A stretch of 59,825 nt of DNA from Alistipes sp. (lineage in GTDB: Bacteria; Bacteroidota; Bacteroidia; Bacteroidales; Rikenellaceae), in assembly GCA_017629145.1 (NCBI GenBank), contig JAGBXR010000011.1:1-59825 (forward strand). Reading direction: 5' to 3'. A program made the translations under genes and the position numbers. A model generated the notes under the pieces. That model was not told the DNA's origin. It made no database searches and worked only from the letters and a program-made list of their open reading frames with translations. Shown here in pieces: positions 45,007 to 59,825 of the stretch (its first letter is position 1; each line of letters opens with the position of its first letter).

Positions 45007-45711
45007 ATGTTAAAAAAAGTATCGTTTGTGATTCTTGGCCTGACGACAGTTGCGGCCATTGAGTCAATTAGTGGCACACCTTATGCCTCTGCGGCGCCTG
45101 TCTATAAGGCAGGATTGGTGGATGCCCAACTTCAGGTTGATGAGCAGATGGCTGTGACTGTCGAGCTGCCATACATTATCTCTCGCTTCGACAACGTTAT
45201 GAAGCGTGTCGGTGCAGAACAAGGACAAGATTGGCGACTGATGAGTGCTATAGCATATAGCGAGTCGCGATTTATCGAAAACCTCGTGTCGAGTCAGGGT
45301 GCGGCTGGCATTATGCAGATTCGCCCAATTGTCGCTCGTCACTTTAATGTTCCGGTCGATAAGCTAAATGATACAGAGACCAACATACGTCTTGCAAGTA
45401 TGTTGCTCGGTGAGCTAGGCAAGATGCTTCGCATCCCTGCTGAGGTATCGAATGACGACCGAATGAAGATTATCCTCGCGAGTTACAACGCTGGTGTAGG
45501 CCACGTTCAGGATGCACGACGCCTTGCGCGTGCCGAGGGTGCTAATCCCAACTCGTGGGCTGATGTCAGTCGCTACCTGCGTCTCAAGGCCGATCCTACC
45601 TATTATAATAAGGAGGAGGTGCGCTATGGTCGTTTTACAGGCAGCGGACAGACACTTTCGTATGTGGAAGAGGTGATGGGAAAGTATCGTCACTATTGCT
45701 CCCTAACATAG
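45007..45711 (+). CDS. Lytic transglycosylase, SLT domain
   Basis: 234 residues with an N-terminal signal or anchor (MLKKVSFVILGLTTVAA). The SLT fold is clear: AIAYSESRFIENLVSSQGAA (catalytic Glu in YSESRF), GIMQIRPIVARHFNV, then NDTETNIRLASMLLGEL and LASYNAGVGHV. It cleaves peptidoglycan glycan strands in the periplasm. It is the third gene of the pssA unit and is followed by a strong terminator. Confidence 0.93.
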   Translation: MLKKVSFVILGLTTVAAIESISGTPYASAAPVYKAGLVDAQLQVDEQMAVTVELPYIISRFDNVMKRVGAEQGQDWRLMSAIAYSESRFIENLVSSQGAAGIMQIRPIVARHFNVPVDKLNDTETNIRLASMLLGELGKMLRIPAEVSNDDRMKIILASYNAGVGHVQDARRLARAEGANPNSWADVSRYLRLKADPTYYNKEEVRYGRFTGSGQTLSYVEEVMGKYRHYCSLT

Positions 45712-45753
45712 ATTTCTAACGATAACGGGTCGATTGCGACCACGATATAGAGT

Positions 45754-45805
45754 AGCAACAATGGGTTGTATGCAGAGTACCACCCGTTGTTGCTGTTTTT
45801 GTTTT
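45754..45805 (+). terminator. Terminator after the lytic transglycosylase gene
   Basis: AGCAACAATGGGT (45754-45766) pairs with ACCCGTTGTTGCT (45782-45794), with one mismatch, then a T-rich tail. Confidence 0.88.
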
Positions 45806-45849
45806 GCGAATAGGCCTCTGCCAGGTACCATTCATTACAACATCGCTAC

Positions 45850-58807: not shown

Positions 58808-59437
58808 ATGAAGCGTTTAGTATTGCTGCTCTCATTGTCGTTTGCCTTTGTGCTGCTTCCGTTCTCTGCTTCTGCGCAGTTCGACCTTTCGAAGGCATTC
58901 GGAGCACTGCTCGGCAGCGCAGATAACACCGCGCAGCAGGATCCGTTGAAGGCTATCGCCGAGGCGGCACCCTCATCGCGCGATGTGGCGCGTACGTGGG
59001 CATACGAAAGACTCTACTTCGAGTTCCTCGGTAACAATCCTCTTGCAGAGGTTGCGTTGCAGCAGCTCGACAGCACCGTGCAGGCGGCACTCAAGCGCGA
59101 GGGTATAGTGTCGGGTGCATTTACGCTCACATTGCGTCGCAATGGTACGGGCTTTATTATGCGCGACGGCAATGCTCTCGATGGCGAATATAAGTACAAC
59201 GAGGAGAAGGGACGTGTAGAGTTCTCGGTATTGGTCAACGGCACAAAGTATCCTTGCGGTGGCTTCTTCAAGCTTAAGGACGAGAATCTTGTGGTTATGG
59301 TTGACGCTGGTGACATCTTCGATATCTATCTTAATGAGTCTCCCCAGTACAGCAACGACCCTACGGCATTAAGCATCAAGGGTGTGTTGGATAGTTTTCC
59401 GGGGGTATTTATATCGTTGGACTTCTCCAAAAACTAA
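58808..59437 (+). CDS. DUF4923 family secreted protein
   Basis: 209 residues from ATG 58808. The signal peptide (1-22, LLLSLSFAFVLLPFSASAQ) is followed by FDLSKAFGALLGS, a helical segment (RDVARTWAYERLYFEFLGN) and a C-terminal lipocalin-like beta region (FTLTLRRNGTGFIMRDGN, then VNGTKYPCGGFFKLKDENL). This matches the plan of the Bacteroidota DUF4923 family of unknown function. It lies downstream of the nadE terminator, so its promoter is not clear. Confidence 0.8.
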   Translation: MKRLVLLLSLSFAFVLLPFSASAQFDLSKAFGALLGSADNTAQQDPLKAIAEAAPSSRDVARTWAYERLYFEFLGNNPLAEVALQQLDSTVQAALKREGIVSGAFTLTLRRNGTGFIMRDGNALDGEYKYNEEKGRVEFSVLVNGTKYPCGGFFKLKDENLVVMVDAGDIFDIYLNESPQYSNDPTALSIKGVLDSFPGVFISLDFSKN

Positions 59438-59463
59438 AATTTCTTGTGATAGTGGCGCTACTT

Positions 59464-59820
59464 CGCCACCTCAATCCAAAGAGCGAATGGGAAATACCTC
59501 AAGTATGTCCCATCCGCTCTTTCTCTTTATCGGTGGCAAATTAGCGTCACTCTGACAAGAAATTAGGGTGTGCAGGCAAGAAGGTGTTGTCTGCGCCACC
59601 TCAATCCAAAGAGCAAACGGGAAAAATACGTTAAGTATGTCCCATCTGCTCTTTCTCTTTATCGGCGGCAAATTAGCGCCACTCTGACAAGAAATTAGGA
59701 ATTTTTCGAGATAAGCAGTCATCTGCGACCTCTCAATCATTGGCTCGAATGGAATGTACGTCAAGTACTATCCATCCGAGCCAATCTCTTTATCGAGGCC
59801 ACAGCTAACTACTTCTATCG
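59464..59820 (-). repeat. Tandem array of three structured ~130-bp repeats
   Basis: Units start at 59464, 59594 and 59726 (periods 130 and 132 bp). Each is a nested hairpin: an outer 6-bp pair (GCCACC/GGTGGC in unit 1), an inner long stem (AAAGAGCG/CGCTCTTT in unit 1, AAAGAGCA/TGCTCTTT in unit 2, ATTGGCTCG/CGAGCCAAT in unit 3), then ATAC/GTAT or GTAC/GTAC at the tip. Units 1 and 2 share the tail GACAAGAAATTAGG. The three pairing defects seen on the + strand are A-C pairs that become G-U on the minus strand, hence the strand call. No gene is supported in 59438-59825; the array may continue past the window edge. Confidence 0.8.
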
Positions 59821-59825
59821 AAAAA

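Follow-up and report, generated by a model that had tools for sequence, protein, structure and literature searches.

A dispersed family of palindromic elements on gene ends of Alistipes, with pairing kept for the antisense strand

In integrons, the attC site adjoins the stop codon of a gene that is read from the top strand. PMC2727003 describes attC as a long imperfect hairpin of 57–142 nt with poor sequence conservation and a structure specific to the bottom strand, which is the only strand used. In REP sequences with GTAG ends, the TAG frequently serves as the stop codon of the neighbouring gene (PMC3733652). Among candidate structured RNAs of human microbiomes, HMP2_4205 and HMP2_1032 appear in PMC8040213 as palindromes of about 100–130 bp from Bacteroidetes, on both strands, and the main text on these candidates does not mention the stop codon.

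The elements described here are, like attC, long imperfect hairpins next to a stop codon with a fold selected on the bottom strand; unlike attC, they are dispersed behind many genes rather than set in cassette arrays, and their apical core is conserved. Many extragenic palindromes occur per genome, as with REP and BIME sequences, but the elements measure about 127 bp, whereas REPs are 20–40 bp long, carry a GTAG or CGTC tag and often lie near RAYT genes; in 137 element flanks read by eye, GTAG is present in some and no tag is constant. With intrinsic terminators they have in common a stable inner hairpin, a U-rich side and the position at gene ends, yet the U-rich tract is usually interrupted and the hairpin is nested in a longer palindrome that keeps its pairing on the other strand. 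They resemble the published descriptions of HMP2_4205 and HMP2_1032 in size, palindromy and host group.

The window, meaning the whole stretch of 59,825 nt that was analysed, spans the whole of contig C4 in a draft Alistipes genome (G000) of 1.62 Mb in 49 contigs. An array of three units occupies 59438–59825 and runs off the contig end at 59825; TRF reports a 132-bp tandem array at 59464–59738, which corresponds to units 1 and 2 and a small part of unit 3. Each element, of about 127 nt, is built from helices P1 (10 bp), P2 (8), P3 (6) and P4 (8) and an apical core. In the following list the minus sign marks the strand of the selected fold; the covariance model, by which unit 1 was scored as well, was itself built in plus orientation.

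58808–59437, plus strand: DUF4923-type gene, whose TAA stop at 59435–59437 abuts unit 1 (start picked by eye; the list of open reading frames gives 58766)
59438–59564, minus strand: unit 1, a complete element, 139.7 bits with the covariance model
59478–59531, plus strand: inner hairpin of unit 1 (P4 and core), then the U-rich tract CTCTTTATC; in the sense direction the two resemble a terminator
59578–59696, minus strand: matched part of unit 2, 68.2 bits, inner part intact
59700–59825, minus strand: unit 3, cut by the contig end, 114.1 bits
45711–45833, plus strand: weak, diverged possible copy directly 3′ of a TAG stop, 28.4 bits, E 0.0013

An earlier note on this DNA had described three tandem units with the same nested hairpin. 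The nested pairing and the paired stem changes between units that it reported are visible in the sequence, and so is the inner stem of unit 3, which differs from the others yet still pairs; this unit has both another P1 type (TTTTTCGA) and another P4 type (ATTGGCTC). One correction concerns unit 2, where the outer 5′ arm is lost, replaced by AGGGTGTGCAGGCAAGAAGG.., so that the full rod does not form on either strand. The minimum free energy of the RNA is lower on the minus strand for unit 1 (−67.2 versus −61.8 on plus) and unit 3 (−66.5 versus −44.0); at the possible copy at 45711–45833 the minus fold is not favoured (plus −39.6, minus −35.4). Elsewhere in the window, positions 1–83 hold a 5S rRNA truncated by the left contig end, and 269–656 a separate tandem repeat of period 144 with 2.7 copies. 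The family seems to fragment this assembly, several contigs of G000 breaking in or beside elements, for example at C4 end, C1 end, C18 end and C39 start.

The earlier note was right to propose a repeat family: the window units are members of a dispersed family, far larger than the local array. A single unit used as query gave 59 matches in G000, the window's own genome, a number that includes short matches and the same palindrome on the opposite strand. The search of relatives with a covariance model, which the note had proposed, was run with a model from 30 units and found the family in 108 of 180 genus members and, at the level of the order, in 5 of 344 genomes, G000 among them; at most 19 candidates were scored per genome, so that copy numbers are floors. 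Among five distant matches the minus strand is far more stable in four and slightly so in the fifth, and three lie at a stop codon. The exact core is present in at least 116 stretches, the 80 matches listed being all from Alistipes/Rikenellaceae, and has 0 exact matches in viral contigs. A P1/P2 junction pattern matched 19 of 334 genomes: 13 times in G000, 11 times in G387, 3, 3 and 1 times in three members of genus g30, and once in each of the remaining 14, which by eye looks like chance; the reversed pattern, as control, gave a single match in each of 4 genomes. No Rfam family reached its gathering score for the elements of the window and of 10 element loci, and no description of the family was found among the papers listed in searches of mainly open-access literature. 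Searches for Rfam families, viral contigs, Y1/RAYT, RT, integron integrase and TnpB gave no explanation of the elements. Related hairpins with another apical core, CTCA-CATACGT..GTATG-CTC (L281, L282, L284, L285; G000:C32:27691-27802; G321, G493), are carried by other Alistipes and also by members of other families within the order. At L011–L049, purine-rich tracts (TTAGGGAGATTAAGGA..) often lie 3′ of the elements, followed by pyrimidine-rich tracts around GGCGCGCAAGC, together a second long inverted repeat.

Pairing is conserved across the family while the stem bases change. Across 30 aligned units, 90.7% of cells are paired and both sides change in 31 of 41 pairs; none of 500 shuffles attains either figure, and slid versions of the structure pair at 38–46%, over which the test structure is favoured because it was drawn from a window unit. 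What looks like an internal loop separating P2 from P3 reads on the minus strand as A-U, G.A, A.G, U-A, G-C, U.G, and the plus strand of this segment, in the 205 of 218 units with sides of equal length, shows C-T 317 times against G-A 13 times and A-C 147 times against G-T 5 times. The loop between P1 and P2 is biased in the same direction (C-T 178, G-A 40; 213 units), and that between P3 and P4 in the opposite one (G-A 21, C-T 1; only 12 of 218 units have equal sides). By these asymmetries, the antisense strand folds for the most part into a near-continuous rod that includes a tandem G-A step.

Defects in the helices point to the same strand. The observation of the earlier note that the leftover mismatches are A-C on the plus strand, and hence G-U on the minus strand, holds family-wide: once 20 shorter units are set aside, the remaining 221 of the 241 unique units show 514 A-C against 150 G-T on the plus strand. 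Neither random, unpaired stem changes nor a lack of A-C/G-U strand bias, which the note had named as evidence to the contrary, was seen across the family. The bias is strong in P2 (212 versus 34) and P3 (208 versus 38), weaker in P1 (49 versus 28) and absent from P4 (33 versus 34) and the core (12 versus 16); reduced to 132 distinct P2–P3 haplotypes among 194 units, it is 246 versus 41. The loci were picked by strong match and the copies are related by descent and conversion, so these counts are not independent events, and many of the sampled genomes are drafts. A symmetric finder that treats A-C and G-T defects alike gave 144 versus 24 in 142 type A elements, 38 versus 7 in 24 of type B and 48 versus 27 in 30 others. 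In 106 ordinary terminators behind element-free genes of the same loci, which served as control, the sense strand carries G-T 57 times and A-C 12 times. Mean RNA folding energy over 218 units is −68.0 on the minus and −53.4 on the plus strand, and the antisense RNA is the more stable in 210 of them.

The minus-strand structural signal is thus strongly supported: covariation is combined with wobble tolerance on one strand, as expected of structured RNA, and the antisense-strand fold is under selection. G-T and G-A pairs form in DNA too, so RNA is not proved by these patterns. Strand-biased mutation acting with gene conversion, and no antisense function, is a very unlikely source of them; module exchange between copies does occur, but the ordinary terminators of the same loci are biased in the opposite direction, P4 and the core are unbiased, and the P2–P3 segment has its strong excess of C-T over G-A.

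The base of the hairpin sits on the stop codon of the upstream gene. Of 241 unique units, 56 lie inside arrays and 13 are too close to an edge; among the other 172, the stop of the upstream frame falls at −5 to 0 in 125 cases, 84 of them at exactly −1, while 18 lack any frame of 100 codons in the adjacent 150 nt. The symmetric finder, which searched only −2 to +12 around the stop, placed 150 of 196 hairpin bases at −2 to 0. Among the 131 units that have a gene end at most 20 nt away, 128 share the orientation of that gene. Element-bearing gene ends use TAA in 46 of 51 cases, against 390 of 651 ends without an element (p 7e-6); where the stop is TAG, at L088 and L093, the matching C is present in the 3′ arm, so the stop codon seems to be part of P1. 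The upstream genes are varied and, judged by eye from their C-termini, housekeeping-like. The link to a DUF4923 gene, a name that we take over from the earlier note, is incidental: an element stands at 6 of 29 distinct DUF4923-like loci with the 3′ end read, a count that includes the window's own locus and one case judged by eye.

Comparison of one such position among relatives suggests what is stable and what moves. The gene gapA is present in 87 of 91 genomes, and its best 30 loci were read by eye. Among the 20 closest (92–100% identity), 14 carry elements of at least two core families at the stop, one has a core hairpin only and five have no element, three of these five with a clear canonical terminator by eye; the other ten (87–88%) have no type A or B element, and four of them have a hairpin of another core. 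The gapA elements of G110 and G149 have unusual outer arms in common and different cores, and at group 13 the elements of G112 and G092 likewise combine common outer arms with different cores. At gapA itself, the elements of these last two genomes are 98% identical and look vertically kept. Of 324 reciprocal-best pairs around gapA in ten genomes, 34 carry an element in both members (3.7 expected) and 35 in one member only; since gapA itself accounts for 28 of these 34, and since at least two elements escaped the finder (G143 gapA, G092 group 13), the evidence for persistence of the slot is weak beyond gapA. What endures at gapA is thus the slot, with changing types and inner modules, and copies disperse. 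The first reading of this DNA had not included the anchoring to stop codons, the likeness of the inner hairpin to a terminator, the spread through the genus or the swapping of modules.

On the sense strand, the 9 nt after the inner hairpin contain 4.8 T on average, against 2.7 on the other side; the sense side is the richer in T in 189 of 218 units and the poorer in 19. The inner hairpin has a mean minimum free energy of −24.3 and passes a strict terminator test in 35 of the 218 units on the sense strand and 23 on the antisense strand, and a looser test in 123 and 89. A further canonical sense terminator lies outside the element at 1 of 35 element-bearing ends, compared with 86 of 249 others (Fisher p 2.4e-5), and in the wider set from the symmetric finder at 11 of 86 compared with 114 of 291. 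A terminator role of the element on the sense strand is therefore plausible, not established. Use of the element by a convergent neighbour as its own terminator is unsupported: canonical terminators on the neighbour's strand, outside the element, are present in 23 of 55 gaps with an element and 37 of 131 without.

It is unlikely that element-bearing gene ends rely on another mode of termination, such as Rho, with no terminator role for the element. The strict test is failed by the inner hairpin in 183 of 218 units, as such a mode would allow, but the U-rich bias of the sense side and the canonical terminators at three of the five element-free close gapA relatives argue the other way. It is very improbable that the whole element is no more than an oversized intrinsic terminator that works as sense RNA; the U-rich tract and the scarcity of other terminators would fit, but the outer stems break sense pairing in a way that true terminators avoid.

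The possibility has real weight, though it is probably not the answer, that the element is mobile, its bottom strand moving or recombining in folded, single-stranded form in the manner of attC, and that it lands behind stop codons, where it would do little harm. The strand-specific fold, gene-proximal placement, arrays and module exchange would suit this explanation, as would copies with 95–98% identity behind different genes of one genome, and attC, of which only the bottom strand is used, offers a precedent (PMC2727003). Against it, attC-type GTT/AAC boxes are not conserved, P1 reading TTTGTTGT, TTTCTTGT, TTTTTCGA or TTTTATCGT with paired replacements. The integron integrase (TIGR02249) is over the cut-off in 0 of 91 genomes, but 0 of 14 control genomes pass either, and all 91 have weaker tyrosine-recombinase matches. 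The RAYT (Y1) transposase PF01797 occurs in 2 of 180 genomes, G000 not among them; RT and TnpB were not found in G000 (76% complete), a result that lends no support to a TnpB guide RNA or a retroelement RNA; among 91 relatives RT is found in 30 and a TnpB-type protein over the cut-off in 6. The apparent vertical inheritance of the element at gapA in G092 and G112 also speaks against mobility, and no clean empty site was found in relatives, because the species are too far apart.

The part of the earlier note that called for a minus-strand RNA fares differently in its two aspects. Structure on that strand is borne out by the base asymmetries, the energies and the opposite bias of the terminator control; nearby promoters give no such support. 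A Bacteroides-type promoter motif lies within 200 nt on the minus strand in 1 of 229 flanks, on the plus strand in 10 and in shuffles in 0. An independently transcribed family of antisense small RNAs, with one gene per copy, is accordingly improbable, despite the greater stability of the minus RNA and a similar minus-strand leader that can be seen by eye in many flanks.

We tentatively favour, at somewhat less than an even chance, a reading in which the elements are gene-end modules, each with a terminator-like hairpin nested within a rod of the antisense strand. In the sense direction, P4 and the apical core, as the inner hairpin, would together with the U-rich tract end, or help to end, the upstream transcript. 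The 3′ arms of the outer stems P1–P3 lie beyond the U-rich tract and would be absent from a transcript ended there; if they never enter the mRNA, this would explain why their pairing shows only on the antisense strand. P1–P3 would then be kept by the need of that strand for a near-continuous rod, with its G-U pairs and tandem G-A, ending on the stop codon. Copies would disperse and nested modules would be exchanged within genomes while gene-end slots persist. In our view the folded molecule is most likely an antisense RNA crossing the gene end, the main alternative being single-stranded DNA.

We know of no gene-end system of antisense-strand rods on stop codons like that described here. A hairpin anchored on the stop codon and paired for the opposite strand hints at an unrecognised function of antisense RNA or single-stranded DNA at gene ends. 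It is conceivable, if somewhat unlikely, that such rods form a genome-wide class on core-gene stops in several lineages of Bacteroidales, bound as RNA or single-stranded DNA by a putative protein and insulating or exchanging gene ends. The bias between sense and antisense wobble pairs, calibrated on ordinary terminators, offers a simple test for the functional strand of a palindromic repeat. If the favoured reading is true, many gene ends of a common gut genus would be an exchangeable module with a hidden constraint on the opposite strand.
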